Shown here: positions 1-27,547 of the stretch, piece after piece | Numbering within the stretch: position 1 is the first letter of the stretch | Layout of the letters: each line of letters opens with the position of its first letter | DNA from: Paracoccaceae bacterium | GTDB lineage: Bacteria > Pseudomonadota > Alphaproteobacteria > Rhodobacterales > Rhodobacteraceae | Assembly: GCA_019634215.1 (NCBI GenBank) | Contig: JAHQVS010000045.1 | Location: 1 to 34,973 of the forward strand | Direction: 5' to 3' | Length of the DNA: 34,973 nt | Translations under genes and position numbers: made by a program | Notes under the pieces: model-generated | Database searches by the model: none | The model's input: only the letters and a program-made list of their open reading frames with translations | Told to the model about the DNA's origin: nothing

Positions 1-454
1 CATAGGGCAAGTTGAACGCGGTATAGAGCAAGATCAGGCCAATGTAGGTGTCGACCAGACCGAACTTGACGAATAGCAAGAACACCGGAAATACGATGAC
101 GATTGGCGGGATCATCCGGTTTGAGAGCAGCCACTCGGAAAATAACTGGCCGCCGGTGCGAAACCGGGCGATTGAGTAGGCGCACATCGTGCCCAACACC
201 ATCGCGGCGACGGTCGAGATTGAGGCGATTACCAAGCTGTTCCAAACAGTAACGGCGTCACCGTCCTTGAACAGCACCGCATAGTTCGCAAACTGGATGG
301 ATTGAGGCCACCAGACCGGCGGTGAGGCGAAAATCTCATCAGGCGTTTTGAAGGAGATTATCGTCAGCCAGTAGATAGGGAATAGAAATAGAGCCGTGAC
401 AACAACAGCCGTCGTCACCCGAAGCCATAATCCGGCGCCACGATCCGCTCTCAT
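1..454 (-). CDS. Carbohydrate ABC transporter permease, MalG/CUT1 type (3' end outside window)
   Basis: This is the inner-membrane permease of a CUT1-type sugar importer; about 151 N-terminal residues are in the window and the rest, including the EAA loop that docks the ATPase, lies left of position 1. The reading starts MRADRGAG and has a first membrane segment at about residues 13-32 (VTTAVVVTALFLFPIYWL), followed by the SFKTPDEIF stretch typical of MalG-like permeases and a second segment near VWNSLVIASIS. The ATG at 454 overlaps the TGA of the upstream permease by four bases (ATGA), indicating translational coupling. It is the third gene of the minus-strand transporter operon; the ATP-binding subunit is not seen and may follow beyond the left edge. 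Substrate is inferred only from the neighbouring apiose-type enzymes. Confidence 0.9.
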   Translation of the reverse strand, partial: MRADRGAGLWLRVTTAVVVTALFLFPIYWLTIISFKTPDEIFASPPVWWPQSIQFANYAVLFKDGDAVTVWNSLVIASISTVAAMVLGTMCAYSIARFRTGGQLFSEWLLSNRMIPPIVIVFPVFLLFVKFGLVDTYIGLILLYTAFNLPY

Positions 455-1332
455 CGGTCAATCTCCATGCGCCGCAAGACGATGGTGATTGAGACGGCGA
501 GCAGCAGGATCACGACAAAGGCCATCGCCGCCGTATAGCTCGTCTCAAACTGCTGAAAGCCTTGAACATAGGCGTAGATCGACACCGTTTCCGTCATTGT
601 TCCCGGTCCGCCGCGCGTCAACGCCCACACCACGTCGAACAATCGGAACAGGTCGAGCGCGCGGATCAGCACGGCGATCGCCATGACGGGCCAGATCGCT
701 GGCAGTACGATCTGCCGGAAGGTGCGCCAGAACCCGGCGCCGTCGATTTCAGCCGCCTCCAGTTGGCTCTGATCCACATTCGAGAGCGCCGCAAGCAGCA
801 GCAGAAACATGAAAGGCGTCCACTGCCAAATCTCGGCGACCAGGATTGCCGGATAAACCAGCGTCGGATCAATCAGCCACAGAAGTGGCGTTTCTTCACC
901 CGCGAACCAGCCGATGATTTGGTTGATTGGGCCGAAGCGGTTGTCGAACATCAATCGCCAAGTGGCGCCTGCCACGATCGGTGACGTGACCACCGGCAGC
1001 ACCAGCAAGGCGACGAAGATTTGCTTCCCTGGGATGCGATCGAGGAACAGATAAGCCAGCGCTAGGCCAAGGAAAAGTTCGGCCGGTAGTGCGATCCCGA
1101 CGAAAATCAGGGTGTGCCCCATCGATTCCCAGAACCGGCCATCCTCCAACAACCGCCCGTAGTGCAGCAACCCGTGGAACGAGCTGTCCTCGTCCAGCAT
1201 CGTCAGGTTTTGAACACTGATGATCAACGAATAGATGATCGGGAATAGCCCGATCAGCAAGATCACCGTCACCGCTGGGACGATCATCCAGAGTCGAAAG
1301 CTATTATCTGACGCGGCGCGGTGGCGGTTCAT
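451..1332 (-). CDS. Sugar ABC transporter permease, MalF/CUT1 type
   Basis: Inner-membrane permease pairing with the gene overlapping its 3' end. Membrane segments are visible at LWMIVPAVTVILLIGLFPIIYSL near the N-terminus and at several later points (for example IFVALLVLPVVTSPIVAG). The permease loop EAAEIDGAGFWRTFRQIVLP matches the EAA motif that contacts the ATPase. The reading frame is open to an ATG at 1371, but that start lies inside a strong inverted repeat (1360-1385); ATGs at 1353 and 1332 are alternatives. I chose 1332 (MNRHRAASDN) because it places the first membrane segment at the usual distance; its ribosome binding site is weak, so 1353 is nearly as likely. The gene lies 77 bases downstream of the binding protein gene. 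Confidence 0.9.
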   Translation of the reverse strand: MNRHRAASDNSFRLWMIVPAVTVILLIGLFPIIYSLIISVQNLTMLDEDSSFHGLLHYGRLLEDGRFWESMGHTLIFVGIALPAELFLGLALAYLFLDRIPGKQIFVALLVLPVVTSPIVAGATWRLMFDNRFGPINQIIGWFAGEETPLLWLIDPTLVYPAILVAEIWQWTPFMFLLLLAALSNVDQSQLEAAEIDGAGFWRTFRQIVLPAIWPVMAIAVLIRALDLFRLFDVVWALTRGGPGTMTETVSIYAYVQGFQQFETSYTAAMAFVVILLLAVSITIVLRRMEIDR

Positions 1333-1359
1333 TCGGATATCTTTACGACACATAGGGTC

Positions 1360-1385
1360 GGCCCGCCGCATCCTTGCGACGGGCC
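1360..1385 (-). promoter_or_regulatory. Intergenic stem-loop between binding protein and permease genes
   Basis: Two ten-base arms, GGCCCGCCGC (1360-1369) and GCGACGGGCC (1376-1385), pair around a six-base loop; the single mismatch becomes a G-U wobble in the minus-strand transcript. No U tract follows. Hairpins at this place in sugar importer operons often stabilise the upstream binding-protein message and lower permease expression; that role is inferred here. Confidence 0.6.
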
Positions 1386-1409: not shown

Positions 1410-2855
1410 TCAGCTTGGATATGCAGCAGCGTTCCCGGCCCAAGACGCGTAGGCGGCCTTTTGTTTGTCGACGCCAATACGCTCCGTGATCTCGTCCCAC
1501 TGTCCGGCGATATCGTCCAGGATCGCTTTCGGATCTTCTCCGGCCCAAAGGCGCGAACACCCCTGACGCAATGCTTCCTCGTAGCGGTCGGTCTGAATGA
1601 TCGAGAGATCCAGCAGCCCTTTCACGGCCCCCTCGCCGAGCGCGGCGAGATACTCCGGCGCCTCCGGCCACCGGCTCTTGTACTCGGCGGAGGCGAAATG
1701 GCTATCGCGGAACGGGTCTCGCAGCGCATAGGGCAGTTGCACGCGTTCGAGGCTTACTTCCTCTGAGTTCAGCCATTGGATGAACAGATACGCCGCTTCC
1801 TTTTGGCGCGATGAGGCGGAAACAGACAGAGCGAAGCCCGCCGCAAGCTGCGGATGCCCGCCCGGCGGCACCGCATAGCCGACCTTGCCGGCGATTTGCG
1901 ACTTTGGCACCCAGGAGAGCGCCTCTTCGTCAGTCCCGTACCCAGCGGCCCAACGCCCATAAGGCGGCCAGGAGACCGTCATCGCGCTGTCGCCTTGCAG
2001 GAAAGCGGCGAGGTTTTCGACAAATCCCCAGGTTTGAACCCCGGCCGGCATCCACTTGTTTTCCTCAACCCAGTCCGAGAACACTTTCACGCCAGCCGGT
2101 GAGTTGATCGTGGCCTTCATTGTCTCGGCGTCGAAGAACTTGCCGCCCTCATTCCGGAACCGCTCCTGGAACATGAACTGGGCGTAGGGCGCGTCGCGGA
2201 AGAAGGTCGCACCATAGGGTTTGCCGCCGGTATGCTCAGTAATGAACGCGCCGACATGGTCGAACTGTTCCCATGTCGTTGGCGGGATCGGCAGATCATA
2301 GCCATGCTTGGCCTTAAAGCCTGCCTGGATGTCCGCATCGCCGAGGATGTCCTTGCGATAATACATCAAGAAAACATCGCCATCGTCAGGGAAGCCGTAG
2401 ATCGTCCCGTCGACCATCATCTGATTGTCGCGATAGACGGGGGCGATGCTTTGCAATTCTTCCCGGAAGCCGTGTTTGTCGACCATGGCGTCGAGCGGCT
2501 CCAGCGCTCCGGCGCGCACCAGATCTGGCATCCAGGCGGGAATGACGTTCAGCGCGTCGTACGCCGCTGCTCCGGCGCGGTGGTTTTGCAAGATCTTTGT
2601 AAACATCTCGGCCGTCGAGACTTCGATCACCTTGACCTTGATTCCGGTCAGCTCTTCCCATTTCGGCCCTGAAAAGTTCAACGGATCGAGGGATTGGAGC
2701 CCGGCTTCCCAGACGATGCTGATTTCCGAGCCGGAGAATTGCTTGGCCGCGTCGACGGCGGTTTGCGCCGCCTGAGCGCTAGCGCGTCGAGGCAAGCCGA
2801 ACATCGAGGCGCCTGCCACTGTGGTGGCGCCTACGAGAAACTGACGTCTACGCAT
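1410..2855 (-). CDS. Family 1 extracellular solute-binding protein, Tat-exported
   Basis: Periplasmic substrate-binding subunit of the CUT1 importer, 481 residues, a usual length for family 1 sugar-binding proteins. The N-terminus MRRRQFLVGATTVAG has a twin-arginine signal, a hydrophobic stretch and a probable cleavage site after RASAQA (about residue 29). A GGGAGGA ribosome binding site lies just upstream of the ATG. The mature part has the classical family pattern, with the motif WEELTGIKVKVIEVS near residues 66-80 and a C-terminal helical part. It heads the operon with the two permeases. Its promoter region carries the regulon motif (3140-3160), so it is probably induced with the apiose-type enzymes. 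Ligand unknown: an apiose-containing oligosaccharide or an oxidised apiose derivative would fit, but this is inference. Confidence 0.92.
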   Translation of the reverse strand: MRRRQFLVGATTVAGASMFGLPRRASAQAAQTAVDAAKQFSGSEISIVWEAGLQSLDPLNFSGPKWEELTGIKVKVIEVSTAEMFTKILQNHRAGAAAYDALNVIPAWMPDLVRAGALEPLDAMVDKHGFREELQSIAPVYRDNQMMVDGTIYGFPDDGDVFLMYYRKDILGDADIQAGFKAKHGYDLPIPPTTWEQFDHVGAFITEHTGGKPYGATFFRDAPYAQFMFQERFRNEGGKFFDAETMKATINSPAGVKVFSDWVEENKWMPAGVQTWGFVENLAAFLQGDSAMTVSWPPYGRWAAGYGTDEEALSWVPKSQIAGKVGYAVPPGGHPQLAAGFALSVSASSRQKEAAYLFIQWLNSEEVSLERVQLPYALRDPFRDSHFASAEYKSRWPEAPEYLAALGEGAVKGLLDLSIIQTDRYEEALRQGCSRLWAGEDPKAILDDIAGQWDEITERIGVDKQKAAYASWAGNAAAYPS

Positions 2856-3261
2856 GTCTTATCCTCCCTATTGGCGGCTCGTCGTTGATCGCGAGGCCGC
2901 TCTTTATTCGCTCGCCGAGAAACTTGAGTGGAAGCATTGATGGTTTGTGCGAGCGTGGATCGTCGGCTTGGAGCGGTTGACGGCTCCGAGGCGGAGGGCG
3001 GCAATCACGCCGCCGTCCTGGCTGACCTGTATGTCCCCTTCGACGCAAACTGCTTTCTGCGCGTTCGCTTTGGTGAAGTCGCGATCCTAGCTAGACCGCG
3101 AGCGCGCTCGCTCGTTCTTTGCCGATGTTGAGCACGATATATACTCATCACACCAGTATAGGCGCCAACGCTTGTCAAGCTGACTCAGCGGCGGTCGTTC
3201 AGAATATCGCCGAAAACTCCGAGTTACGAGGGGAGGTCCAGTTAGAATTTAAACAAATTAT
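2856..3261. other. 406-base intergenic region with long leader of the importer operon
   Basis: No gene is convincing here. If transcription of the binding-protein gene starts just after the -10-like TATATA at 3138-3143 (minus strand), the untranslated leader is about 270 bases long. It contains a perfect 14-base palindrome GCGAGCGCGCTCGC at 3098-3111. The plus-strand open frame of 67 residues at 2928-3131 has no ribosome binding site or recognisable family. Confidence 0.5.
3140..3160 (-). promoter_or_regulatory. Probable operator of the FCD regulator, importer promoter
   Basis: A perfect inverted repeat TATACT-N9-AGTATA. Read on the minus strand it is TGGTGTGATGAGTATATA, which matches the sites at 5885-5902 and 12378-12395 base for base at most positions. 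The TATATA part is positioned as a -10 element for the minus-strand binding-protein gene, so binding would block transcription. Operator function is inferred from the repetition of the motif at three promoters of one locus. Confidence 0.65.
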
Positions 3262-4578
3262 CTATTTGTCGCCATCGCGTAGCCAGATGAAATAGTCATC
3301 GCCGCCGACTTGCCCGCCCTTCAGTGCGATCTCGAAGACGCCTCCGTCGGTGCGATGGGCGTTGCAAGCTGGCGAGCCAGGGGTCGCCGGTATCGAGCGG
3401 CGCAGCGTCAGCGCGTAGACGCCCAGTTCTGATAATGCATGGCTCGACGTGTCGCCGCCCGCCACGGCGACGCGATGCAGCGAATGCTCTTCCAGTAAGC
3501 GGCGCAGGGCCTTGCCCAGCCATCGCCCGACGGAGTCATCTGCTGTGCCAGAGGATTGCACGCTCTCTGGTCCGAGCGCTGTATAGAGGATTGGACTACG
3601 CCCGGCGGTGATGGCGGCGCTGGCGCGGCCTAACGCTTGCTCGAACGCCGCTTCGGCGCCGTAACCCCCGGCGAGCGCCGCATAATCCACCGGCACACCT
3701 TCAAAACCCGCATCACATGCTGTTTTGATCTGGCGCTCGGTCGTCGGGGAACAGCTTCCCGACACCACAGCAATGACATCCTGACGCATGAGAGGCGGCG
3801 TTGCATCTGGCGGCACGACGAGGCCCGCCGCGCGCCAAGCCGATAGCAGCGCATACTCAATCCCGGAAGACCCGACGATAAACGGCCCGGTCTCTTCCCG
3901 ATCGGCTTCGAGCGCCAAGCCTGCGCGCTCTTGCGAGCCTGTATCGTAGACATCGATCAAGGCGACTTCGCCGCCTTCCGCCCGTAACCGGCGTATGATC
4001 TCGACGGGAGCTGTGGATCGAGCCGCATCGGGGTCGACGCACCCAACCTGTAAATCGCATTGCGCTGAGAGATGCCGCGCCAGATCGGCCTCATGCATCG
4101 GCGTCGATGGATGGCGGCTCATCACCGGATGCCGGTCAATGCGATAGGCCGCGTCTCGATATCCGGCGAAGAGATGCCCGAACATCGTGTACCGGCGAAG
4201 TTGCGGCGCGCCAACGATCATATTGATGGCGGATTGTCCGAAGGTCGCCATCCCGATCTCCGTCGCGCGGCCGATCGACCCGGTTTCGGGGGAACTGTCG
4301 AACGTTGAACAGACCTTATAATGACAATAGCGCGCGCCGAGGTTGCGCAGCCAAGCGAAAGCGCCCGGCAGATGATCGTTCATCCATTCTGGCGAGCGGC
4401 TCCGACTCTCGCCTGCGAGGCCGATTGCGCGCACATCAGGGAACCGCCTCAGCTCCGCCTCCGACGGTTCCCGAGTGAATAGAACCGTCGGCGCGCCATT
4501 CGCTGAAAGCGCCTCCATCACATCTGTGGAGCCGGTGAAGTCGTCCCCATAATAGGAAAGCAACAATCCGCCGCTCAT
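3262..4578 (-). CDS. oiaK: Four-carbon acid sugar kinase family protein (DUF1537), probable 3-oxo-isoapionate kinase
   Basis: A 438-residue, two-domain kinase of the DUF1537 (four-carbon acid sugar kinase) family. The N-terminal domain (about 1-250) opens with YYGDDFTGSTD, the family's substrate-binding signature; the C-terminal nucleotide-binding domain (about 265-435) has VVSGSCSPTTERQI, AVAGGDTSSHAL and a final LKGGQVGGDDYF. Family members phosphorylate four- or five-carbon acid sugars with ATP. Next to a RuBisCO-like protein and an ApnO-like enzyme, the best fit is OiaK, giving 3-oxo-isoapionate 4-phosphate. The start overlaps the stop of the RuBisCO-like gene by four bases (ATGA), so the two are coupled. 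Alternatives are threonate/erythronate-type kinases (OtnK, DtnK), but their usual partners (dehydrogenase, aldolase) are absent. Confidence 0.85.
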   Translation of the reverse strand: MSGGLLLSYYGDDFTGSTDVMEALSANGAPTVLFTREPSEAELRRFPDVRAIGLAGESRSRSPEWMNDHLPGAFAWLRNLGARYCHYKVCSTFDSSPETGSIGRATEIGMATFGQSAINMIVGAPQLRRYTMFGHLFAGYRDAAYRIDRHPVMSRHPSTPMHEADLARHLSAQCDLQVGCVDPDAARSTAPVEIIRRLRAEGGEVALIDVYDTGSQERAGLALEADREETGPFIVGSSGIEYALLSAWRAAGLVVPPDATPPLMRQDVIAVVSGSCSPTTERQIKTACDAGFEGVPVDYAALAGGYGAEAAFEQALGRASAAITAGRSPILYTALGPESVQSSGTADDSVGRWLGKALRRLLEEHSLHRVAVAGGDTSSHALSELGVYALTLRRSIPATPGSPACNAHRTDGGVFEIALKGGQVGGDDYFIWLRDGDK

Positions 4579-5831
4579 TGCACCTGCCGCCCAAACGCCT
4601 TCAGGGCCGCCGCAAGTTCTGGGCGATGCAAGGCATGATCCTCAAGCGATACGCCGTCTTGCACCGCCTCCACCGCTTGGCGCAGGCTCGCGACCCCGCC
4701 GGCGACGCCGTCCGGATGGCCCATAATTCCGCCCCCCGCGCAGAAGATAAAATCGTTTGAGCCGGTTGCGGCCATGCTGGCTCCCATCTGTAGCGCTGTC
4801 TGCCCTGAAGAGAAAACCGGCATCGCGAGATAGTCAGGCCCTTCCCCAAACAGCGGTGTGGCGACGGCGCGAGCGGAAGCGATGACGGAATCATCACTTT
4901 CAGAAAACTTATTGGCGACGCCGTTTACATGCAGATGGTCTGCCCCCGCCAGTCGCCAGAATTTTTGCCACGCAACATAGCTGATGCCGATGTCCGGCGA
5001 GCGTGAGAACAAGCCCCAGCCATTGCGGTGGGCGTGAAGCGGCAGTTCGGCGTGTCGCCGGATCGCGGTCATTCCGGCGAGGCCGATCGAGTGCAGGCTG
5101 ACCATCACACAGGTCCCGCCCGTATCGCGCACCAGATCATGGCTGCGCTTCATCTCATCGATCTCACCGGTGATGTTAAAAGCGATCATGACCTTCTTGC
5201 CGGTTTTGTCGGCATGATTATTTACGACCCGCATCACATGATTGACCCGGTCAGCCAGCGGGCAAGCGGGGCCGTTGGCTTGCAGTTCGTCGTCTTTGAT
5301 GAAGTCGATCCCGCTTTCCGCTAGGCGCTGGACCAAGCTGGCGGTGTCTTCTGGTGAGAGGCCGACACTCGGCTTGATAATGGTGCCGATGAGGGGGCCC
5401 TCGGCCAACCCCGTCAATCGCCTGGTGCCCTCGACGCCGAAAGCAGGCCCTGGATACGCATCGGCGAAGGCGGACGGGAGCGTGACGTCAAGCAGTCTCA
5501 GCGCGGAAACTTCAGCTAATTCAAACAGATTACCTGCGACGGTCGCGAGCAAGTTTGGCAGTGAAGGCCCCATTGTTTCGATTGGCCATGAGATGCGAAT
5601 GCGCCCGCGTTGGCATTGATCACCTTGGCGTTTACAGGGCAGCGACGGCGAAGCCCGAGTCTCCTGAACGGTCACTTGCTCGACCCGCGCCCCGCTGCGT
5701 GCACGAAGATCGTCCGTTTCTCCAGGAAGTCGGACAAAGGTGCCTGAAGACTGCTCCCCTGCGATGACTTCGGCCGCATGCTCAAGGGGCAGTGGGCTCT
5801 CCAGCTCATATTCCGCGACAATCCTCGCCAA
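4575..5831 (-). CDS. RuBisCO-like protein (form IV), probable 3-oxo-isoapionate-4-phosphate decarboxylase or transcarboxylase/hydrolase
   Basis: A 418-residue RuBisCO large-chain-like protein. K153 in GTIIKPSVGLSP corresponds to the catalytic Lys175 of true RuBisCO, while the following Lys177 position is Ser. The metal-site motif FIKDDE is intact (K179, D181, E182), so the carbamylated lysine and Mg2+ ligands are probably kept. HAHRNGWG and the glycine-rich phosphate site GGGIMGHPDG follow. True RuBisCO activity is not expected. With the kinase and ApnO homologue beside it, the protein fits OiaX (decarboxylase giving an erythrulose phosphate) or OiaT (transcarboxylase/hydrolase giving 3-phosphoglycerate and glycolate); the absence of erythrulose-phosphate isomerases in the window slightly favours OiaT. 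The start is TTG at 5831, five bases after GGAGG; the nearby ATG is out of frame. Confidence 0.85.
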   Translation of the reverse strand: MARIVAEYELESPLPLEHAAEVIAGEQSSGTFVRLPGETDDLRARSGARVEQVTVQETRASPSLPCKRQGDQCQRGRIRISWPIETMGPSLPNLLATVAGNLFELAEVSALRLLDVTLPSAFADAYPGPAFGVEGTRRLTGLAEGPLIGTIIKPSVGLSPEDTASLVQRLAESGIDFIKDDELQANGPACPLADRVNHVMRVVNNHADKTGKKVMIAFNITGEIDEMKRSHDLVRDTGGTCVMVSLHSIGLAGMTAIRRHAELPLHAHRNGWGLFSRSPDIGISYVAWQKFWRLAGADHLHVNGVANKFSESDDSVIASARAVATPLFGEGPDYLAMPVFSSGQTALQMGASMAATGSNDFIFCAGGGIMGHPDGVAGGVASLRQAVEAVQDGVSLEDHALHRPELAAALKAFGRQVQ

Positions 5832-5884: not shown

Positions 5885-5902
5885 TATACTCATCATATCA
5901 GT
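5885..5902. promoter_or_regulatory. Divergent promoter region with probable FCD-regulator operator
   Basis: The dyad ACTCATCATATCAGT (5888-5902) fits ACTnATnnnATnAGT. On the minus strand the sequence continues into TATAAC (5883-5888), placed as a -10 box about 45 bases before the RuBisCO-like gene. On the plus strand a perfect -35 TTGACA (5902-5907) begins at the last base of the dyad and points to apnO, though its -10 is poor. One bound dimer could therefore control both directions. Confidence 0.65.
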
Positions 5903-5955
5903 TGACATCATGATAGGGCTATCTCAATTTGGCCGCCAGTTAGGGAGGACATGCA

Positions 5956-6780
5956 ATGAAGATCGCGCTCATAGGCGCTGGTGGAAAAATGGGCGTGCGC
6001 CTGTCGCTCAACCTCAAGGGGTCGGAATATGATGTCGCGCATGTCGAGGTCAGCGAGGCCGGGCGCGCGAGGCTGAAAGACGCTGCCGGCGCCGAGTGCC
6101 AGCCCCTGGAGCAAGCGTTGGCGGGGGCGGGCGCAGTGATTCTGGCCGTGCCGGATACCGCAATACAGGCCGTCGCCGCCGGTTTGATTGATCAATTGGA
6201 CCCTGGAACTGTTGTCGTAATCCTTGATGCGGCCGCCCCTGCGGCTGGGCACCTGCCTGAGCGATCCGACGTCACCTATTTCGTGACCCACCCATGCCAT
6301 CCGCCGATATGGAACGATGAAACCGATCTCAATGCGAAGCGAGATTACTTCGGCGGTGTCGCGGCGCGGCAAGCGATCGTCAGTGCTCTGATGCAAGGGC
6401 CGGAGGAGCATTACGCCGTCGGCGAGGCGATAGCGAAGATTATCTACCAACCAATCTTGCGGTCGCACCGCGTGACGGTTGAACAGATGGCGCTGCTGGA
6501 GCCCGGCCTGTCGGAAACAGTCTGCGCCACGCTGCTTGTCGCGATGAAGACCGCTCTCGACGATGTCGTACGCCGTGGGGTCGATCGCACAGCCGCGCGT
6601 GATTTCCTGGTTGGGCACATGAACATAATCGGCGCCGTGGTGATGGAGGAGATCGATGGGGTCTTCTCTGACGCTTGTAACAAGGCCATCGCGAATGGCA
6701 CGCCGAGGATTTTGCGTGATGACTGGCTCGGGGTGCTGGAGCCAGAGGAGATCGCGGAAAGCATCCGCCGAATTACTTGA
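5956..6780 (+). CDS. apnO: NAD-dependent oxidoreductase of the phosphogluconate-dehydrogenase-like group, probable D-apionate oxidoisomerase
   Basis: A 274-residue dehydrogenase. Residues 1-130 form a Rossmann fold with the dinucleotide loop ALIGAGGKMG at 4-13; the C-terminal half is helical and matches the PGDH_C type (segments HYAVGEAIAKIIYQP and VTVEQMALLEPGLSETVCATL). ApnO enzymes of this architecture convert D-apionate to 3-oxo-isoapionate with NAD+. The assignment rests on this fold plus the kinase, RuBisCO-like and ApsD-like genes around it. The ATG at 5956 has AGGGAGG seven to ten bases upstream. It is the first gene of the plus-strand operon, divergent from the RuBisCO-like gene across the shared operator at 5885-5902. 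Another 3-hydroxyacid dehydrogenase activity cannot be excluded. Confidence 0.8.
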   Translation: MKIALIGAGGKMGVRLSLNLKGSEYDVAHVEVSEAGRARLKDAAGAECQPLEQALAGAGAVILAVPDTAIQAVAAGLIDQLDPGTVVVILDAAAPAAGHLPERSDVTYFVTHPCHPPIWNDETDLNAKRDYFGGVAARQAIVSALMQGPEEHYAVGEAIAKIIYQPILRSHRVTVEQMALLEPGLSETVCATLLVAMKTALDDVVRRGVDRTAARDFLVGHMNIIGAVVMEEIDGVFSDACNKAIANGTPRILRDDWLGVLEPEEIAESIRRIT

Positions 6781-6837
6781 CGATCCGGCGGTGGTGAAGC
6801 TGGGCGCGGGCCCGGCCAAGAGCAAAGCAGTGTCTAA

Positions 6838-7812
<975 letters not shown>

Positions 7813-7815
7813 TCC

Positions 7816-7852
7816 GATCAGCCGCTCGGTCTTCGGGCGGCTAGATCCTTTT
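7816..7852 (+). promoter_or_regulatory. Stem-loop with short U run after the binding-protein gene
   Basis: GATC-AGCCGC (7816-7825) pairs with GCGGCT-a-GATC (7837-7847), ending in TTTT (7849-7852). It stands four bases after the stop codon of the binding protein, ahead of the less-needed membrane and ATPase genes. It probably acts as a partial terminator or a 3' stabiliser, giving excess binding protein; this role is inferred. Confidence 0.55.
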
Positions 7853-7910
7853 GCCAAAGCGCTCGATCGCGTATTGCGGTCGGGCGCATTTTCTGAGTTC
7901 GGGTGGCTCG

Positions 7911-8564
7911 ATGTGTTCTTCTGTCTTAAAAGCGTCTTTGGCGTTGCTGCTTGCGTTTGCCATTCCCAGCTGCAAAATCGTCAGTAATGCGGAGCGGCAG
8001 GCGAAACTAGCCGCCGATGAGAGCGAAGCCGATATCGTCGGCGCCACGGTTGAGCGTGCCTGGGAAGCCGAGGCGTTGCCGCATATTAAGGCGAAGGCCG
8101 TTCCGTTCAACGATCTCAAAGTCGCGATTGCCGCTGACCTTATGACGGCTGGAGCGGCGCATGGCTACCGCCAGGAAAGTGAAGGCAGCCCTTGGAATTT
8201 TGCGACGCAGATTTCGGGTCTCATCATCGCGGCGAACACCAAGAGCCGCGCGGCGACGGCTGATGTGGATGTGGATGGCGATGGCGCAATGGACGCAGTG
8301 CTTCAGCTCGGCCCGGTGATCCGGGGAACCACGCTTCGAGATGTACTGCCTTTTATCAACTTCACGCAGTTTCGCGACCAGATTGAATTCGCAAAGCTCG
8401 CACGCGCCTTCAACACACGCGCTTATGAGGCTGTGCTTGAGCCATTGCCGAGATCCGCGCTTATAGGGTCGCGCGTGACGGCGACCGGCGTATTCACCAT
8501 GCGATCCGCCGGGGATAAAGTTCTGGTCACGCCCATCGCCATTGCTTTGGGGCCGGACACATGA
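7911..8564 (+). CDS. DUF2291 family lipoprotein
   Basis: A 217-residue lipoprotein, with a signal peptide at 1-20 and a lipobox ending PSC at residue 21 (MCSSVLKASLALLLAFAIPSC). It then continues KIVSNAERQAKLAADESEADIVG, which is the pattern of the DUF2291 family, predicted periplasmic lipoproteins found inside ribose-type sugar importer operons. Biochemical role unknown; position suggests an accessory to the importer, perhaps anchoring the binding protein. The frame is open further upstream (to 7851), but the start at 7911 places the signal peptide correctly. The stop overlaps the start of the ATPase gene by four bases, supporting one translation-coupled operon. Confidence 0.85.
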   Translation: MCSSVLKASLALLLAFAIPSCKIVSNAERQAKLAADESEADIVGATVERAWEAEALPHIKAKAVPFNDLKVAIAADLMTAGAAHGYRQESEGSPWNFATQISGLIIAANTKSRAATADVDVDGDGAMDAVLQLGPVIRGTTLRDVLPFINFTQFRDQIEFAKLARAFNTRAYEAVLEPLPRSALIGSRVTATGVFTMRSAGDKVLVTPIAIALGPDT

Positions 8565-10123
8565 TTGGCGGCGCCGAGCGCCCAGCGCACCCGATATTGC
8601 TGTCAGTTCGCAATGCGTCCAAAGTCTACCCTGGCACGCGCGCCTTGGATCAAGTCGATTTCGATGTGCGCGGCGGGGCCGTGAATGTGCTGGTCGGCGA
8701 GAATGGGGCCGGCAAGTCGACCCTGATGAAAATTGCCGCAGGGGTGGAACAGCCGACCGAAGGCGAGATCATTATCGATGAGGCCCCTGTAAGATTCTCA
8801 GATACACGCCATGCCGCACGCCATGGTGTGGGCATCATCTTTCAAGAGCTGAACCTGTTTCCAAACATGACCGTGGCGGAGAATATTTTCATTTCCCGCG
8901 AGAAACTGCGTGGCGGAATTGACATTAACGCCCCTGCGCAGCGTGAAGCGGCGCGTGGCCTGATGCGGCGGCTGGAGCATGATATCTCGCCGGATGCGTT
9001 GGTTGGAGAACTGACGATCGGCGAGCAGCAACTTGTCGAGATCGCCAAGGCGTTATCGCAAGACGCGAAGATCCTGATCATGGATGAACCGACCTCGGCG
9101 CTCAGTGCGGCTGAGGTTGAGATCTTATTCCGGGTGATCGCCGACCTGAAACGGCGGGGCGTCGGCATTGTTTACATCTCCCACCGCCTAGAAGAGCTGA
9201 TCCGCATCGGCGACTATGTGACCGTGCTGCGCGATGGGCGGGTGACCGGTGCGCGGGGTATGGAGGGGGTCGACGTTCCCTGGATCGTGCGCAACATGAT
9301 CGGCGCCGCCTCAAAGGACTACGCCAAAACAGATCACCATGCCTTTGGGGCGGAGATGTTTCGGGCGGAAGAAATCCGCTTGCCCAGCCCTGCTGGCGGC
9401 TTCGCGGTCGACAGCGTGTCAATGTCAGTCCGCTCCGGCGAGATCCTGGGCGTCTATGGGCTGATGGGCGCAGGTCGTTCCGAGTTTTGCGAATGCGTCA
9501 TCGGCAAACATCGGCACGCCAGCGGCGCGCTTCATCTCGATGGCGCGCCGCTCGATGAGCCAGATATTGCGGGCCGTATTCGTCGCGGCGTTGCGCTGAT
9601 CCCTGAGGATCGTAAGCTCGACGGCTTGGTTCAGATCATGTCGATCCGCGAAAACATGACATTGTCGAACTTGCGTGAGTTCGCGCGCCGCCTCGGCCTG
9701 GATTTAAAGAGCGAAGCCCAGGCCGTGCTGAGCTTTGTGCGAGATTTGACCATCAAGGCGGCCAGCGTTGAGAACCCGGTCAGCGCGCTGTCCGGCGGAA
9801 ACCAACAAAAGGTGGTGATCGGCAAGGCCCTGATGACGAAGCCAAAGCTGTTGTTGATGGACGAGCCCAGCAGGGGCATCGACATTGGCGCCAAAGCGGA
9901 GGTGTTTCGCACCATGCGGCGGCTAGCCGCCGAAGGCATGGCGATCATTTTCGTCACCTCTGATCTTGAAGAGGTGATGTCTCTATCAGACCGCATCATC
10001 GTTATGTCCAACGGGCGCATTACTGGCGAATTCACGCCAGAAGGCACGGCGGAAGCCGACATTGTCGCCGCGTCCGCCGTCGGCCATGCGCCTGACACAC
10101 GCCTTTCGGAGTCGATAGCATGA
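8561..10123 (+). CDS. Sugar ABC transporter ATP-binding protein, RbsA/MglA type
   Basis: A 520-residue protein with two fused nucleotide-binding domains, as is standard for CUT2 importers. Domain 1 has Walker A GENGAGKST (about residue 45), the helical signature LTIGEQQLVEIAKAL and Walker B ILIMDEPTSAL. Domain 2 has the degenerate Walker A region GLMGAGRSE typical of RbsA C-terminal halves, a signature LSGGNQQKVVIGKAL and LLLMDEPSRGID. It powers import through the permease encoded immediately downstream (four-base overlap). The substrate is assumed to be the same pentose as that of the 6865-7812 protein. Confidence 0.95.
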   Translation: MIGGAERPAHPILLSVRNASKVYPGTRALDQVDFDVRGGAVNVLVGENGAGKSTLMKIAAGVEQPTEGEIIIDEAPVRFSDTRHAARHGVGIIFQELNLFPNMTVAENIFISREKLRGGIDINAPAQREAARGLMRRLEHDISPDALVGELTIGEQQLVEIAKALSQDAKILIMDEPTSALSAAEVEILFRVIADLKRRGVGIVYISHRLEELIRIGDYVTVLRDGRVTGARGMEGVDVPWIVRNMIGAASKDYAKTDHHAFGAEMFRAEEIRLPSPAGGFAVDSVSMSVRSGEILGVYGLMGAGRSEFCECVIGKHRHASGALHLDGAPLDEPDIAGRIRRGVALIPEDRKLDGLVQIMSIRENMTLSNLREFARRLGLDLKSEAQAVLSFVRDLTIKAASVENPVSALSGGNQQKVVIGKALMTKPKLLLMDEPSRGIDIGAKAEVFRTMRRLAAEGMAIIFVTSDLEEVMSLSDRIIVMSNGRITGEFTPEGTAEADIVAASAVGHAPDTRLSESIA

Positions 10124-11193
10124 CCACCACCATCGCGGACCGGCCCGCCGCTGTCGGCGGCGATCAATCGCTGTTGCTTCTGCTGTTGAAGCTTCGCACT
10201 TTCATCGCGCTGATCGCGGTGTTCGTGTTCTTTTCGATCGCGGCGCCGAACTTCCTGAGCGCCGAGAACTTCGTCATCATGTCGAAACATGTGGCGCTCA
10301 ACGCCTTCTTGGCGATTGGCATGACGTTTGTGATCATTACGGGGGGAATTGACCTTTCGGTCGGCTCAATCGTCGGACTGTGCGGCATGGTGGCTGGCTG
10401 GCTGATCCTCTATGGTATCGACCTCAACCTGATTGGGGTTCCGTATACGATCTACTTCAATACCGTGGAGATCGTTGCTCTCACATTGCTGGTTGGGATT
10501 GCAGTGGGAGCGGTCAACGGCGTGTTGATTACCCGGCTCAGCGTCGCCCCGTTTATTGCGACGCTCGGAACGCTCTATGTCGCACGTGGCTTGGCGTTGC
10601 TGTCTTCCGATGGTGCAACCTTCCCGAATTTGGTTGGTAGCGAGGAGTTCGGCTCTACAGGTTTCGCTGCGCTCGGGGCGGGCACGTTCCTTGGCATCCC
10701 GTTTATGATCTGGACCTTGATCGCGGTGTCGGGAGGCGCGGCTTACCTGGCGGCGCGAACGCCGCTCGGCCGCCATATCTACGCGGTCGGGGGCAATGAA
10801 CGGGGTGCGGCGCTTTCGGGGGTGAAAGTCGATCGCGTGAAGATGTTTGTGTACATGTTCTCCGGCTGTTGCGCGGCAATCGTGGGGCTGATCATCTCGT
10901 CCCAACTCGTCGCCTCACACCCCGCGACAGGGGAGACCTTTGAGCTAAATGCGATCGCCGCCGCCGTGTTGGGAGGCACATCGATGTCTGGCGGGCGGGG
11001 GCGGATTTTGGGAACCATCGTCGGCGCTTTCGTGATCGGCATACTCTCCGACGGGCTGGTGATGATGGGCGTCAGCGCCTTTTGGCAGACGGTTATCAAA
11101 GGCCTCGTCATTATCGCCGCCGTCGTTGTCGATCAAGCTCAGCAACGGCTACAGGCGCGGATCGCGCTACAGCAACAAGCGGCATTAGCGTAA
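10120..11193 (+). CDS. Sugar ABC transporter permease, RbsC type
   Basis: A 357-residue inner-membrane protein of the BPD_transp_2 family, with about eight to ten hydrophobic segments beginning at LLLLKLRTFIALIAVFVFF. The family's conserved regions are visible: ITGGIDLSVGSIVGL (residues about 72-86), NGVLITRLSVAPFIATLGTL, and GRHIYAVGGNERGAALSGV, the last being the cytoplasmic loop facing the ATPase. It probably forms a homodimer channel. It is last of the importer genes and is followed 14 bases later by the Gfo/Idh/MocA dehydrogenase, so the two are likely cotranscribed. Confidence 0.95.
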   Translation: MTTTIADRPAAVGGDQSLLLLLLKLRTFIALIAVFVFFSIAAPNFLSAENFVIMSKHVALNAFLAIGMTFVIITGGIDLSVGSIVGLCGMVAGWLILYGIDLNLIGVPYTIYFNTVEIVALTLLVGIAVGAVNGVLITRLSVAPFIATLGTLYVARGLALLSSDGATFPNLVGSEEFGSTGFAALGAGTFLGIPFMIWTLIAVSGGAAYLAARTPLGRHIYAVGGNERGAALSGVKVDRVKMFVYMFSGCCAAIVGLIISSQLVASHPATGETFELNAIAAAVLGGTSMSGGRGRILGTIVGAFVIGILSDGLVMMGVSAFWQTVIKGLVIIAAVVVDQAQQRLQARIALQQQAALA

Positions 11194-11207: not shown

Positions 11208-12227
11208 ATGAAAACAGGCGCGCTGATTGGCTGCGGTTTTTTCGCCGAGAACCATCTTCATGCTTGGCGGGATGTGGCCGGTGCGGAGATCAGCGCGATT
11301 TGCGATCGTGATCCCGAGCGCCTGCGCATTGTCGGAGAGATGTTCGGGATCGACCGGCGCTACGCCGACGCCGAACAGATGCTGACGGATGGGTCCTTCG
11401 ACTTCGTCGATATCGCCACCACGGTGGCGTCGCATCGGCCCTTGGTTGAGCTGGTCGCCCAAAGTGGCGCGCATATCATTTGCCAGAAACCTTTCGCCGA
11501 CAGCATGACCGACGCGCGCGCTATGGTGGCGGCCGCAAACGCTGCTGGGCTCTCACTGATGGTCCATGAGAATTTCCGATGGCAGTCGGCGATCCGGGCG
11601 GCGAAGGCGTTGATTGACGACGGTTCAATTGGAGAGCCGTTCTGGGGGCGGGTGAGCTTTCGCTCCGCCTATGATGTTTATGCCGCCCAGCCCTATCTCG
11701 CGACGGATGACAAATTCATAATTCAGGACCTGGGCATCCATCTGCTCGATATTGCTCGGTTCTTATTCGGCGATGTGGCGGCGCTGAGCGCGAGCACCCG
11801 GCGGGTAAACCCAAAAATCCGCGCCGAGGACGTCGCCACTATGCTCCTCCACCACAAGAGCGGCCTCGCCTCCATGGTGGACTGTAGCTACGCCACCCAG
11901 CTTCCCGAGGAGAGTTTTCCGCAAACCCTGCTGGAAATCGACGGGGAGAAGGGGACGTTGCGCCTCTCGGTCGGGTATCGGTTGACGCTGACGGATCAGC
12001 AGGGAACGCGGGAGATCGATGTTTCGCCGCCGCTGCTCCCTTGGGCGGAGCGGCCATGGCACAACATTCAAGAAAGCGTCTTTGCGATCCAGCAACACTT
12101 TGTAGAGCAACTTGAGAAGGGCGGCGTCACGGAAACTTCGGGCGCGGACAATTTGAAAACGCTCGAATTGGTGTATGGCGCGTATGAGTCCGCCGCGGAT
12201 CATGGGAAGAGCGTCACCCTAGAGTAA
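11208..12227 (+). CDS. apsD: Gfo/Idh/MocA family oxidoreductase, probable D-apiose dehydrogenase
   Basis: A 339-residue NAD(P)-dependent sugar dehydrogenase. The Rossmann nucleotide loop is ALIGCGFFAENH at residues 5-16, the catalytic-lysine motif is CQKPFADS with K94 (the family's EKP motif with Q in place of E), and the active-site helix is QDLGIHLLDIARFLFG. In known apiose loci a member of this family, ApsD, oxidises D-apiofuranose to D-apionolactone, which needs a lactonase (ApnL) before ApnO; no lactonase is seen in the window. The start at 11208 has AGGAG seven bases upstream; the longer open frame from 11082 would overlap the permease by more than 100 bases. Another aldose or inositol dehydrogenase is the main alternative. 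Confidence 0.8.
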   Translation: MKTGALIGCGFFAENHLHAWRDVAGAEISAICDRDPERLRIVGEMFGIDRRYADAEQMLTDGSFDFVDIATTVASHRPLVELVAQSGAHIICQKPFADSMTDARAMVAAANAAGLSLMVHENFRWQSAIRAAKALIDDGSIGEPFWGRVSFRSAYDVYAAQPYLATDDKFIIQDLGIHLLDIARFLFGDVAALSASTRRVNPKIRAEDVATMLLHHKSGLASMVDCSYATQLPEESFPQTLLEIDGEKGTLRLSVGYRLTLTDQQGTREIDVSPPLLPWAERPWHNIQESVFAIQQHFVEQLEKGGVTETSGADNLKTLELVYGAYESAADHGKSVTLE

Positions 12228-12271
12228 ATGCTGATCTGATGCTCTCAGATAATTGTTTTTATATTCACTTT

Positions 12272-12300
12272 GGCGATTGGCTTGCGCCAAGCCGATCGCC
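12272..12300 (+). terminator. Stem-loop after the apsD-like gene
   Basis: Arms of 13 bases, GGCGATTGGCTTG and CAAGCCGATCGCC, pair with one G-U wobble around the loop CGC. It stands 44 bases past the stop codon. No U tract follows, so it may be a 3' stabilising hairpin or a weak terminator rather than a classical intrinsic terminator. Confidence 0.5.
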
Positions 12301-12366
12301 GTCGGCGCGAGGTTAGAGGCCGAACTGCCCTATTGTGATGTCTTTAAGCGCATGATGCCGGTCCTA

Positions 12367-12395
12367 TTGAAGCGTTTTGATATGATCAGTATTTG
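12367..12395 (+). promoter_or_regulatory. Regulator gene promoter with embedded operator
   Basis: TTGAAG (12367-12372), a 17-base spacer and TATTTG (12390-12395) form a plausible sigma-70 promoter. The spacer plus -10 contains TGATATGATCAGTATTTG (12378-12395), nearly identical to the minus-strand readings at 3140-3160 and 5885-5902. The FCD regulator therefore probably represses its own gene. Here only the left half of the dyad is well kept. Confidence 0.6.
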
Positions 12396-12462
12396 ATGGT
12401 GTCTCTCGCCTTGCAGGGGAGCGGAGTCGCAATAGGCATAGGTCGAGGAGACCACTGAACAC

Positions 12463-13197
12463 ATGGCGAAACCGACGCAGATGGGTTCGAGCCCCTCCCC
12501 AGAGAGAATCGTTCGAAAAAAGCTGTCAGATCAAGTCTTTGAGCGTCTGAGGCAGATGATCGAGAGCCGAGAAGTCTGCCCTGGAGAGCTTATGCCCTCA
12601 GAGCGCGACTTGATGGAACAGTTTGGCGTCGGCAGGCCTGCGGTGCGCGAAGCGATGCAGTCGATGCATGTGAGGGGTTTGATTACAATCTCCCATGGCG
12701 GGCGGGCGCGGGTCAATCACCTCTCGACGGACATGGCGTTCCAAAACATGGACTCGATCGCGCGGCTCCTGCTCTCGACGTCACCGGAGAATCTGGAGCA
12801 CTTGAAAGAAGCAAGGAGGATGTTCGAGCTGGGGATGGCGCGTCTTGCTGCGGAGAACGCGACCGAGGCTGATATTGCAGATCTGCGCGCCCTGATTGAA
12901 CAGCAGCGTTCGCTTTTGAAGGAGGCAGAGCCCTTTATTCAGGTCGATATGCAGTTTCATCGGCGTATCGCTGAGATCTCAGCGAACCCGATTTTTATCG
13001 GATTGAGTGAGGCGATGCTCGATTGGTTGTTCCATTACCACGCCTATCTGTTGCGCTGGAGCGGCAAGGAGAAGATGACGCTGCGAGAACACGAGGCGAT
13101 TACCGACGCGATCGCGGCGCGGGCGCCGGATAAGGCGATTGAGACGATGCGCATTCATCTCGATCGCTCCAACAGCTTGTATGCTCATCCTGGCTAA
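12463..13197 (+). CDS. GntR family transcriptional regulator, FadR/FCD subfamily (NanR-like)
   Basis: A 244-residue regulator with an N-terminal winged helix-turn-helix at about 18-88 (KLSDQVFERLRQMIESREVC, then PSERDLMEQFGVGRPAVREAM and LITISHGGRARV) and a C-terminal FCD ligand-binding domain at about 95-235. FCD metal-site residues are visible: D and H in DMQFHRRI, the histidines of FHYHAY, EHEAI and the late IHLDRS. It is the only regulator in the sugar locus. The dyad motif in its promoter recurs at two catabolic promoters, so it probably represses all three and is released by a pathway intermediate. The start at 12463 has GAGGAG about 12 bases upstream, rather far; ATG 12481 is an alternative. 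Confidence 0.9.
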   Translation: MAKPTQMGSSPSPERIVRKKLSDQVFERLRQMIESREVCPGELMPSERDLMEQFGVGRPAVREAMQSMHVRGLITISHGGRARVNHLSTDMAFQNMDSIARLLLSTSPENLEHLKEARRMFELGMARLAAENATEADIADLRALIEQQRSLLKEAEPFIQVDMQFHRRIAEISANPIFIGLSEAMLDWLFHYHAYLLRWSGKEKMTLREHEAITDAIAARAPDKAIETMRIHLDRSNSLYAHPG

Positions 13198-23056: not shown

Positions 23057-23116
23057 CATGCGTCCAGTAAAACGGTTTGCGTATCTTTGATTGTTCTTGT
23101 ATGCGCGAATGATTGC

Positions 23117-23133
23117 ATGACTCTTTGAGTCAT
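23117..23133. repeat. Inverted repeat in the leader of the secreted protein gene
   Basis: ATGACTC-TTT-GAGTCAT is a perfect seven-base inverted repeat with a three-base loop, about 40 bases before the start codon and 26 bases before the ribosome binding site. It could be an operator or a small leader hairpin. Confidence 0.4.
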
Positions 23134-23172
23134 TCTCACGCTGTGTTTCCGATATCGCCGGGAGACTTTCGA

Positions 23173-26100
23173 ATGGCTACATCAGCTTCAAGCATCGACG
23201 GCGAGCTGAAGGTTTGGCATAAAGTTACTCTTGATTTTGAAGGACCGTTACTGAGCGAAGATCCGTCAACCTTTCGTGATTATCGCCTTGATGTAACTTT
23301 CACAAATAAAGATACGGGCGAAGTTGTCCGGGTTCCAGGGTTCTTTGCCGCAGATGGCGACGCCGCCAATACTGGAGCTACCTCTGGAAATATTTTCCGA
23401 GTAAATTTCAATCCGCCTTCCGAAGGCGATTGGGAGTATACCGCATCTTTTCGAACTGGCGATGATATTGCAGCCTCGACAGATCCCTCTGCGGGCGTTG
23501 CAGTCAATTCAATTGACGGCGCGACCGGCTCCTTATCGATATCGCCAACGGACAAAACTGGCGACGACTTCCGCGCCAAAGGCATGATTGTTCAGGGTGA
23601 GGGCACCAATTACCTGCAGCATCAGGGTGACGGAGATTATTTTATTCGCGGTGGGCCGGGGATTCCGGAGAATTTCCTCGCCAACCCGGACATCGACAAT
23701 ACCTCGAATGGTCGGCATGCCTTTGAGACTCACGCGCAGGACGCCAACGCTGGCGACCCGACATGGGACGGCGGCAAGGGCTCGAATATTCTCGGTGCGG
23801 TCAATTATCTCGCCGAGCAGGGTCAGAATACTATCTATGTGATGACCATGACGGCCGGCGGCGATGGCAAAGACGTCTGGCCTTGGGCTGCGGATGATCT
23901 TCAAAACGTCAGCCAAAATCAAAACGGTATCGATAGCGACACGGTCTCCACCTACGACATCAGCAAACTGTCGCAGTGGGAGATCATTTTCGATCACATG
24001 GACAATCAGGGCATTTATAAGAATGTCCTGTTCCAAGAGACCGAGAATGATCAGCTGCTGAATGGCGGCACCGACGCCCCTGGCACCAGCCTCAGTGTCG
24101 AGCGCCTAGTATATATGCGCGAGATGATCGCCCGTTTCGGTCACAGCAACGGCATCCAGTGGAATCTGGGCGAAGAGAACACCAATACCAATCAGGAGCG
24201 TGCCGACATGGCGCGGTTCGTGAAGGAGGTGGACGGCTACGACCACTTGGTCACGATCCACACCTTCACTGGCGATTACAATGTTTACGATCAGCTGTTG
24301 AATGTGGATTCGTTCGACGGTCCGTCTTTCCAGGCCAACGCCAACAACATCCGTTCGGAGACGGCGGAGTATGTTGAGAAATCGAATGCGGCAGGTGATC
24401 CGTGGGTGATCACCTGGGACGAGGACTCCAGCGGCAACGGCATTGTCGATCCGGGCTCCAATAATCCGGACAGCTCCAATGAAAAGCTGCTGCGGGAATC
24501 TTTCTGGGGCTCGCTGACAGTTGGCGGGTCGGGCGGCAACTGGTACTTCAAGGGCAACAGCGGCCATTCGCTTGACCAGAATTACGACGCGTTCCGGGGC
24601 CATGAATCGGTCTGGGAATGGACTGCCGCCGCCACCGATTTCTTCAACACTTACATTCCCTTCTGGGAGATGAGCGAAGATGATGGCGCCACCCAGAACG
24701 GCGACGACTTTGTCATGTCGAAGCCGGGTGAGTATTACGTCGTCTATCTGAAGTACGGCAACGCGGGGGATGTGCGCCTCAACTTGTCTGGTGAGGCCGG
24801 GGAGACATTCGACGTCTATTGGTACGACCCGCGTAACGGCGGGCCGCTGGTTGAGGCCGGGCAGGTTTCAGGCGGCGGTGTTGAGCAGCTTGGCGGGCCG
24901 CCGAACAGTGCAGGCAAGGACTGGGTGCTGTATGTCAAAAACAGCGAGCTGCCTCTCACCCCCTCCGGATCTGCGCCGAACCCGATCTCGGAACCCGACC
25001 CGACCACGCCGGACGGCCCTGATGCGCCGCAACCGGTCGATGGCGCGGTTTATGGCGACACTGACGGCGTCTTCGTGCTTGAGAGCGAGATGGCGCCGGC
25101 GACGGGCGGTTGGGTCGCAGAAAACAAGATCGCCGGCTTCACGGGCGAAAACTATTACCGCTGGACCGGTGACAACCGATACGGCGAGCCGCCGACCGGC
25201 GATCTGCCGGGCACCTTGAGCTTCAACATCAATGTTGAGGAAGCTGGCGACTATTTCCTCGCCGTTCGATCTGGCCGCACCAAAGAGGGCACGCCGGGCA
25301 TTCGCGACGATGAAGCCAACGACGTCTTGGTGCGGATCGATGGCGGCCCCTGGGTCAAGGTGTTCGCTGGCGGCATGGAATGGGAGGCGATCAACGGTTG
25401 GGCGACCACCTTCGATATCCATGATCAGAAATCCCCGGCGCAGTACAACCTGACGGCGGGCGTACACACCCTTGAGATCTCTGGCCGTTCCACCAACACT
25501 CTGATTGATAAAATCATTTTGGCGGAAGGTGCGGCGGTTACGAACAACAGCCTGCCGCTGTCGCCTCTGGTCGACGGCACTCCAACAACGCCCACGGCGC
25601 CGGATACTCCGGATCCAGACCCTGTGGTGGACCCAGTCCCGGACACACCTACGCCTGGAGATCCGGGCGAGCCGCCGATTGGCGATGGCCCTGGCGATCT
25701 GACCGCCACGGTGTTCCTGATGGACAGCACGACAGACCAACCGATCGCCGAGGCGCTGGGCGACGGCGCCGTGGTTGATTGGTCGCAATACGCCGACAAG
25801 CCGGTGAATGTGGTGGTAGAGTTCAGCGGCGCTGACGCTGGGCAAGTGTCCAGCGCGGTTCTAACGCTGGATGGCGGCGCTCACACCCAGACGGAGAGCG
25901 CTGTGCCGTTCGCACTGTTCGGGGATGTGGGCTCCGATCTTAGCGACGGCCAAATCGGTTTGGGGGCCCACACCCTTTCGGTGCAAGCCTACACCGGCAC
26001 TGGCGGACAGGGCGCGCTGCTGAAAAGCTTCGAGTTTGATCTTGTGATGGCCGATGGCGTGACCACCGCGCCTGACCCGGCGCCGCCGGTTGTTGTCCCT

Positions 26101-27457: not shown

Positions 27458-27547
27458 TGTAAAGCGTTTTAGGACTGATGTCTCGACGGCCCGTGAGGTA
27501 AAGTCGATCCTAATCTGTTGTTAGATGGGCGAATGGAGATAGACGCG

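Follow-up and report, generated by a model that had tools for sequence, protein, structure and literature searches.

Two RuBisCO-like proteins (RLPs) of apionate breakdown, OiaX and OiaT, were reportedly described by Carter et al. 2018. OiaX is a decarboxylase, and its route requires two isomerases to get to erythrose 4-phosphate; OiaT is a transcarboxylase/hydrolase acting after the kinase OiaK. We analyzed a stretch of 34,973 nucleotides (the window: contig JAHQVS010000045.1, positions 1 to 34,973, of the Paracoccaceae bacterium assembly GCA_019634215.1), which encodes the following protein:

4575..5831, minus strand: RLP of 418 amino acids with a TTG start, most likely an OiaT-type 3-oxo-isoapionate-4-phosphate transcarboxylase/hydrolase

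This RLP is probably an OiaT-type enzyme that acts after OiaK in D-apiose/D-apionate breakdown, where it would give 3-phosphoglycerate and glycolate. The assignment is based on the gene itself, its predicted fold, the cluster around it, phylogeny, catalytic residues, and the absence of isomerases from the data searched; from these we infer the substrate, the order of steps, the products, and the roles of individual residues.

The window RLP can be compared with four described proteins or families. It would resemble OiaT in its predicted place after OiaK and in keeping the full set of RuBisCO residues expected for OiaT. With OiaX it shares the fold family, the metal triad, Lys175, the loop-6 Lys, and the loss of Lys177 (RuBisCO numbering), as well as a set of neighbors (a kinase, an ApnO-like protein, a transporter, a Gfo/Idh dehydrogenase, and a NanR regulator); however, it is only 40 to 43% identical to plasmid proteins named OiaX, falls in a separate clade, and differs at four catalytic positions. 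RuBisCO form III has the same fold and nearly all of the same catalytic residues, but the window RLP carries Ser in place of Lys177, is encoded in a sugar-acid catabolic cluster, and scores 253 bits on the type III RuBisCO model, against a cutoff of 497. The closest solved structure, 3nwr (an RLP of Burkholderia fungorum), has the same residues at the four positions at which OiaX differs but has Asn at position 177 and belongs to a separate group, clade B, whose loci mostly carry tripartite ATP-independent periplasmic (TRAP) transporter genes and lack an ApnO homolog.

The RLP open reading frame is uninterrupted on the minus strand. An earlier note on this DNA had given its coordinates correctly without naming the strand; the plus-strand frame of the same interval contains several stops. 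A good ribosome-binding site (gggagga) precedes the TTG start, and the frame is not a product of chance because the protein has near-full-length homology to many others (56 to 74% identity across the 80 loci kept of 567 relatives). Matches in both Pfam (PF00016, 235 bits) and NCBIfam assign it to the RuBisCO large-chain family. An AlphaFold2 model (predicted local distance difference test score, 92.5) best matches 3nwr in the PDB (Z 53.5, root mean square deviation 1.4 over 399 residues, 49% identity), and chains of MtnW and RuBisCO are also among its structural matches. The predicted fold is that of a RuBisCO large chain, as OiaT membership demands.

In a 143-row alignment, K153, S155, K179, D181, and E182 of the window RLP align with K175, K177, K201, D203, and E204 of RuBisCO, as the earlier note had claimed; the RuBisCO rows read K, K, K, D, and E at these positions in 8 of 8 cases. 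RuBisCO positions H294, R295, H327, K334, and S379 and the glycines of 403-404 are also retained. The metal-site Lys, Asp, and Glu and the Lys175 expected of OiaT are thus present, with carbamylation of the metal-site Lys predicted.

Four further positions distinguish the window RLP from OiaX. RuBisCO employs E60, N123, H327, and S379 around carboxylation, hydration, and cleavage, and these residues correspond to E26, N101, H301, and S341 of the window RLP. They are kept in 109, 108, 109, and 108, respectively, of the 109 rows of the window RLP's kind and in all 12 clade-B rows, a set that includes L165 (labeled as "other" in the 73-row tree described below but placed there among clade B). L164 and L166, which belong to no group, also keep all four; the E60 column is a gap in 4 of the 8 RuBisCO rows. 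All four RuBisCO residues are absent from OiaX, which reads D, G, Q, and G or C at these positions in 12 of 12 rows, whereas the window RLP has E, N, H, and S. A transcarboxylase/hydrolase should retain these residues, while a plain decarboxylase need not. Judged from the alignment, this simple residue rule, which was derived in the present analysis rather than taken from a paper, may tell the two known forms of the enzyme apart.

The Ser at the Lys177 position, to which the earlier note had drawn attention, does not separate the two reactions. In the window RLP's kind, 107 of 109 rows have Ser at position 177; all 12 clade-B rows have either Asn or Ser there, and all 12 OiaX rows have either Ala or Ser. 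Because Lys177 is replaced across its own kind, clade B, and OiaX, the Ser is not peculiar to the window RLP, and we rejected it as a discriminator between OiaX and OiaT. Lys177 serves RuBisCO around enolization; its loss in all three groups would fit the formation of an enediolate by decarboxylation.

The phylogenetic comparison proposed in the earlier note was carried out against OiaX. A first tree comprised 133 of 166 extracted RLP rows plus 3nwr (the omitted rows comprised 21 additional ones of RuBisCO type and 12 that were partial, duplicated, or of poor quality), and a second, more careful tree comprised 73 rows chosen from the 143 aligned. In the 73-row tree, with RuBisCO as the outgroup, OiaX forms a clade on a long stem (100/100), and a supported group (98/98) joins OiaX to clade B, which contains 3nwr and its relatives, and to three rows without an assignment; the window RLP lies outside both, and its nearest kin are proteins of Palleronia, Marimonas, and Mameliella (99/97). 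One OiaX-type row (L008/G002) was assigned by its position in the tree and not by NCBIfam score. Forcing the window RLP to unite with OiaX was rejected by the approximately unbiased test (p-AU 0.0013). The OiaX lineage is nested among rows that retain the four residues, and because the outgroup and the rows around OiaX retain them too, the changes in OiaX appear to be derived; the RuBisCO outgroup branch is long, as are rows L165 and L166, making the position of the root less sure than the supports suggest. As to whether the window RLP's kind is a grade or a clade, two changes are found on the best tree and one in 8% of bootstrap trees.

Profile scores agree with this placement. The OiaX model NF042437 is the best-scoring NCBIfam model for the window RLP, yet the score of 434 bits is below the cutoff of 700, while two annotated OiaX proteins score 759 and 788. 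No OiaT model was among the NCBIfam matches of the window RLP, and among the 60 best plasmid relatives listed none is named OiaX or OiaT, the named ones bearing generic RuBisCO-type names. Of 385 genomes in a sample of the class, none contained an OiaX above the cutoff. Together with the retained residues, the position outside the OiaX clade and below the OiaX cutoff bears out the earlier note's lean toward OiaT.

Two Rhizobium proteins named OiaX (L131 and L167), 69% identical to another OiaX, are flanked by aldo/keto reductases, a 3-keto-5-aminohexanoate cleavage protein, and a distant kinase, with no homolog of ApnO, ApnL, or the isomerases in these flanks; in this context, the OiaX label may be too wide. 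A haloarchaeal RLP on a Natronococcus plasmid (L166, 7001-8239; 55% identity) has a class II aldolase and an FGGY sugar kinase nearby and no OiaK homolog, perhaps reflecting a different pathway around the same kind of enzyme. Among clade-B loci, L161, L162, L163, L204, and L205 combine the RLP with kinase and TRAP transporter genes, and 4 of these 5 have no ApnO homolog nearby; L161 and L163 carry pyruvate kinase beside the RLP, and L163 also carries enolase and phosphoenolpyruvate carboxylase. Such gene content perhaps points to a related pathway that acts on another sugar acid and ends at 3-phosphoglycerate.

The genes around the window RLP suggest its substrate. The features of the region are as follows:

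451..1371, minus strand: permease of a second sugar ATP-binding cassette (ABC) transporter (Pfam/NCBIfam)
1410..2855, minus strand: substrate-binding protein of the second sugar ABC transporter, possibly of the same regulon (PF01547; shared TGATGAGTATA element)
3140..3159, minus strand: second copy of TGATGAGTATA, located upstream of the second ABC transporter and contained in a palindrome, ATACT-N9-AGTAT (motif count)
3262..4578, minus strand: four-carbon acid sugar kinase, OiaK-like (3-oxo-isoapionate kinase) (SBD_N and NBD_C; NF042436 at 440 bits, best NCBIfam match)
5885..5895, minus strand: TGATGAGTATA element, candidate operator in the promoter region from which RLP and ApnO diverge (0.08 copies expected in the window, 2 found)
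5956..6780, plus strand: ApnO-like D-apionate oxidoisomerase (NAD-binding and PGDH_C domains), divergent from the RLP (PF16896, 225 bits)
6865..7812, plus strand: ribose-type ABC transporter substrate-binding protein (Pfam/NCBIfam)
7851..8564, plus strand: DUF2291 lipoprotein (PF10054)
8561..10123, plus strand: sugar ABC transporter ATPase (Pfam/NCBIfam)
10120..11193, plus strand: sugar ABC transporter permease (Pfam/NCBIfam)
11208..12227, plus strand: Gfo/Idh/MocA dehydrogenase, likely D-apiose dehydrogenase ApsD (PF01408, PF22725; same position in sister clusters)
12463..13197, plus strand: GntR/FCD regulator, NanR-type (NF003011, 302 bits, above the cutoff of 260)

The last 4 bases of the RLP gene are shared with the kinase gene. 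The dehydrogenase reading frame is listed from 11082, and its start at 11208 was inferred from the NAD-binding motif. We take the PF16896-matching family to be ApnO, and the name ApsD, like the other enzyme names and pathway steps that lack a model match, follows the D-apiose catabolism literature. A minus-strand frame opposite ApnO (5908-6843) has no NCBIfam or Pfam match and was taken as spurious.

Plasmids of Roseibium and Phyllobacterium have an identical gene order plus one extra gene between the dehydrogenase and the regulator; in Roseibium this gene encodes the D-apionate lactonase ApnL (924 bits versus a curated cutoff of 750). Of six further ApnL candidates scanned, five were above the cutoff, one of them from an OiaX locus. 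No ApnL homolog was found in the window, including 12228-12462; base 1 of the contig is the first base of the window, and the search for a lactonase did not extend to the rest of the genome. In the flanks of 92 loci of the window RLP's kind (the window included), OiaK homologs occur in 89 and ApnO homologs in 78; some loci are short, so absence here means absence within the flank examined, and the loci include near-duplicates (L180 repeats the L079 gene region, and several Ancylobacter rows are identical), so these counts are not independent. Four of 23 kinases scanned pass the OiaK equivalog model NF042436 (cutoff, 700), all from Paraburkholderia/Burkholderia (823 to 844 bits) and all adjoining RLPs of the window RLP's kind, whereas the three kinases scanned from OiaX loci score 470 to 478 bits. 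The RLP is thus encoded alongside ApnO-like and OiaK-like genes, and the cluster is best read, from its gene content, as a D-apiose/D-apionate cluster; 3-oxo-isoapionate 4-phosphate is therefore the likely substrate of the RLP.

There are exactly two copies of the 11-mer TGATGAGTATA in the window. In the other loci examined it lies upstream of the RLP in L101 (position 1428) and L133 (8834) and occurs once in L041 (1691). It is a candidate operator of the NanR-type regulator. Elsewhere in the window (23113-27324), a 1,403-amino-acid protein combines DUF5060, a collagen-binding-like domain, and an apiosidase-like domain that scores 25.2 bits, just under the threshold of 26.5; its gene adjoins those of an ABC exporter-like protein and an HlyD protein (27518-29323 and 29391-30722). 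It is possibly a secreted apiose-releasing enzyme.

The isomerases required after OiaX offer a further comparison. In the OiaX locus of R. bangladeshense, the isomerase genes (TIM and RpiB) come after the kinase gene, and its RpiB scores 256 bits against a cutoff of 240 on the D-erythrulose-4-phosphate isomerase model. At the thresholds used, the window yielded no homolog of either isomerase (TIM or RpiB) from an OiaX locus, in agreement with the earlier note, which had seen no erythrulose-phosphate isomerase there. Both genes are present in the flanks of 3 of 12 OiaX loci; in the 92 flanks of the window RLP's kind, TIM was found in none and RpiB in one (38% identity, distant). The earlier argument from isomerase absence is thus weak by itself but fares better at genome scale. 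The genome of the window, a metagenome-assembled genome (MAG), yielded no RpiB and one TIM that is 36% identical to the OiaX-locus isomerase. Among 18 genomes with the window RLP's kind (of 20 loci chosen, L032 and L056 were left out), 7 have RpiB; a TIM sharing at least 56% identity with the OiaX-locus enzyme was found in 2, both of them among those 7. The single OiaX genome searched, G002, has the OiaX-locus TIM at 69% identity, plus RpiB.

Genes for use of the proposed products were also surveyed. With E. coli queries, 91 loci of the window RLP's kind gave hyi-like matches in 6, glxR-like in 15, glcD-like in 5, glcE-like in 4, and gcl-like in 1; four of the six hyi-like matches are at 49% identity (halomonads and Aromatoleum), and most other glycolate-gene matches are at 27 to 41%. 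The same queries found no glycolate-use genes in 12 OiaX loci or 11 clade-B loci. Pyruvate kinase is present in 3 of 11 clade-B loci (of these, one is the locus that supplied the query and another has just a fragment, at the edge of the locus) and in 1 of 91 loci of the window RLP's kind; enolase was found in the query's own locus alone. Given how few OiaX and clade-B loci there are, and in the absence of a computed chance level, we did not count the glycolate-gene matches as evidence for the products.

Several points weigh against the OiaT-type assignment. We take the assayed OiaT to be a Xanthobacter enzyme, and it could not be placed relative to the window RLP. Two genomes whose acetone carboxylase is 92 to 93% identical to a PDB protein, presumably that of Xanthobacter Py2, each gave a single RLP match, which belongs to clade B and is 52% identical to the window RLP; a TRAP binding protein and a kinase lie nearby, with no ApnO homolog. 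A form-I-type RuBisCO is expected in Xanthobacter, and the identity of these two genomes is doubtful because neither gave such a match, versus 30 of 30 genomes of a neighboring genus. The assayed OiaT may nonetheless lie outside the window RLP's own group, and if it belongs to clade B, the window RLP would be OiaT-like by its residues and not as nearest kin. In addition, the window kinase is itself under the OiaK cutoff, as are 19 of the 23 kinases scanned; 9 of 12 OiaX loci likewise lack adjacent isomerases, so that adjacency is weak as a sole test; the MAG is 82% complete, which limits the negative isomerase result in this genome; and no glycolate-use gene set regularly accompanies RLPs of the window RLP's kind. 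In the literature, a review passage (PMC6302742) names RLPs of Agrobacterium K84 and Xanthobacter for decarboxylation and transcarboxylation/"hydrolation" without stating explicitly which does which, and no sequence-level description of OiaT was found in the portions of the literature searched. PMC11747546 reports that a strain of Rhodobacteraceae whose enzyme set is comparable grows on D-apiose as its sole carbon source, and it labels the RLP of that strain, which may be either OiaX or of the window RLP's kind, a decarboxylase.

That label and the scarcity of isomerases beside OiaX genes both favor the first alternative, in which the window RLP is an OiaX-like decarboxylase and L-erythrulose 1-phosphate is processed by enzymes encoded elsewhere in the genome or absent from the assembly. 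The same substrate-making genes would serve such an enzyme, and OiaX is the top NCBIfam model. We nevertheless consider this alternative unlikely: the RLP stands outside the OiaX clade and below its cutoff, all four OiaX replacements are absent, neither RpiB nor a LerI-like TIM was found in its own 82%-complete genome, and, among the 18 genomes with RLPs of its kind, RpiB was not found in 11 and a LerI-like TIM was not found in 16.

A second alternative, which we regard as very unlikely, is a third reaction on the same phosphate, such as direct hydrolytic cleavage without carboxyl transfer to give 2-phosphoglycolate and glycerate. Retention of the hydration and cleavage residues would be compatible with it, as would the separation of the window RLP's group from both OiaX and clade B and the fact that the assayed OiaT could not be placed; however, no report of such an activity was found in the literature consulted, and the OiaT reaction already accounts for the residue set. 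That the protein is a true RuBisCO, or has a different RLP role like that of MtnW in methionine salvage, is scarcely credible despite the common fold and the MtnW and RuBisCO chains among the structural matches, since the protein fails both MtnW-type models (151 bits versus 513.6 for TIGR03332 and 189 versus 409), as well as the type III RuBisCO model, lacks Lys177, and is surrounded by apiose-cluster genes.

If the RLP is an OiaT-type enzyme, the pathway would run as follows, given what is generally known of RuBisCO residues and chemistry. Apiose would be imported and oxidized by the Gfo/Idh dehydrogenase; ApnO would convert the product into the branched beta-keto acid 3-oxo-isoapionate; and the OiaK-like kinase would phosphorylate it and pass the phosphate to the RLP. 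This substrate, HOOC-C(OH)(CH2OH)-CO-CH2OP, would resemble the six-carbon 2-carboxy-3-keto intermediate of RuBisCO. With Mg2+ held by carbamylated Lys179, Asp181, and Glu182, loss of CO2 would give the enediolate of L-erythrulose 1-phosphate, and Lys177 would be dispensable because decarboxylation itself yields the enediolate. The retained CO2 would then be added again to the neighboring carbon, next to the phosphate arm, and hydration of the ketone and a RuBisCO-like C-C cleavage would release 3-phosphoglycerate and glycolate. E26, N101, H301, and S341 would be retained for recarboxylation, hydration, and cleavage, while OiaX would need decarboxylation alone and would have lost the four residues.

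We further propose, tentatively and at somewhat less than an even chance, that the window RLP's group keeps the ancestral state of apionate RLPs together with an entire RuBisCO half-cycle fed from within, in which CO2 is released by decarboxylation, held, and added to the neighboring carbon before hydration and cleavage, and that OiaX arose once inside the family by losing E60, N123, H327, and S379, which would leave it a bare decarboxylase. The pathway is a known one, and the window RLP is an ordinary member of it; the new elements are the residue rule and the nesting of OiaX, which together would allow the OiaX/OiaT split to be tested with point changes. If this proposal is true, OiaX and OiaT form a natural pair in which the residues that RuBisCO needs for carboxylation, hydration, and cleavage are set apart from those that hold the enediolate. 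OiaX and OiaT-like enzymes would offer a natural comparison for the RuBisCO residues that serve carboxylation and cleavage. The residue rule would permit the reaction to be predicted from sequence and would flag RLPs that are perhaps mislabeled as decarboxylases. For the organism itself, an OiaT-type RLP would mean that 3-phosphoglycerate and glycolate are the forms in which apiose carbon reaches metabolism and that the RLP step costs no carbon.

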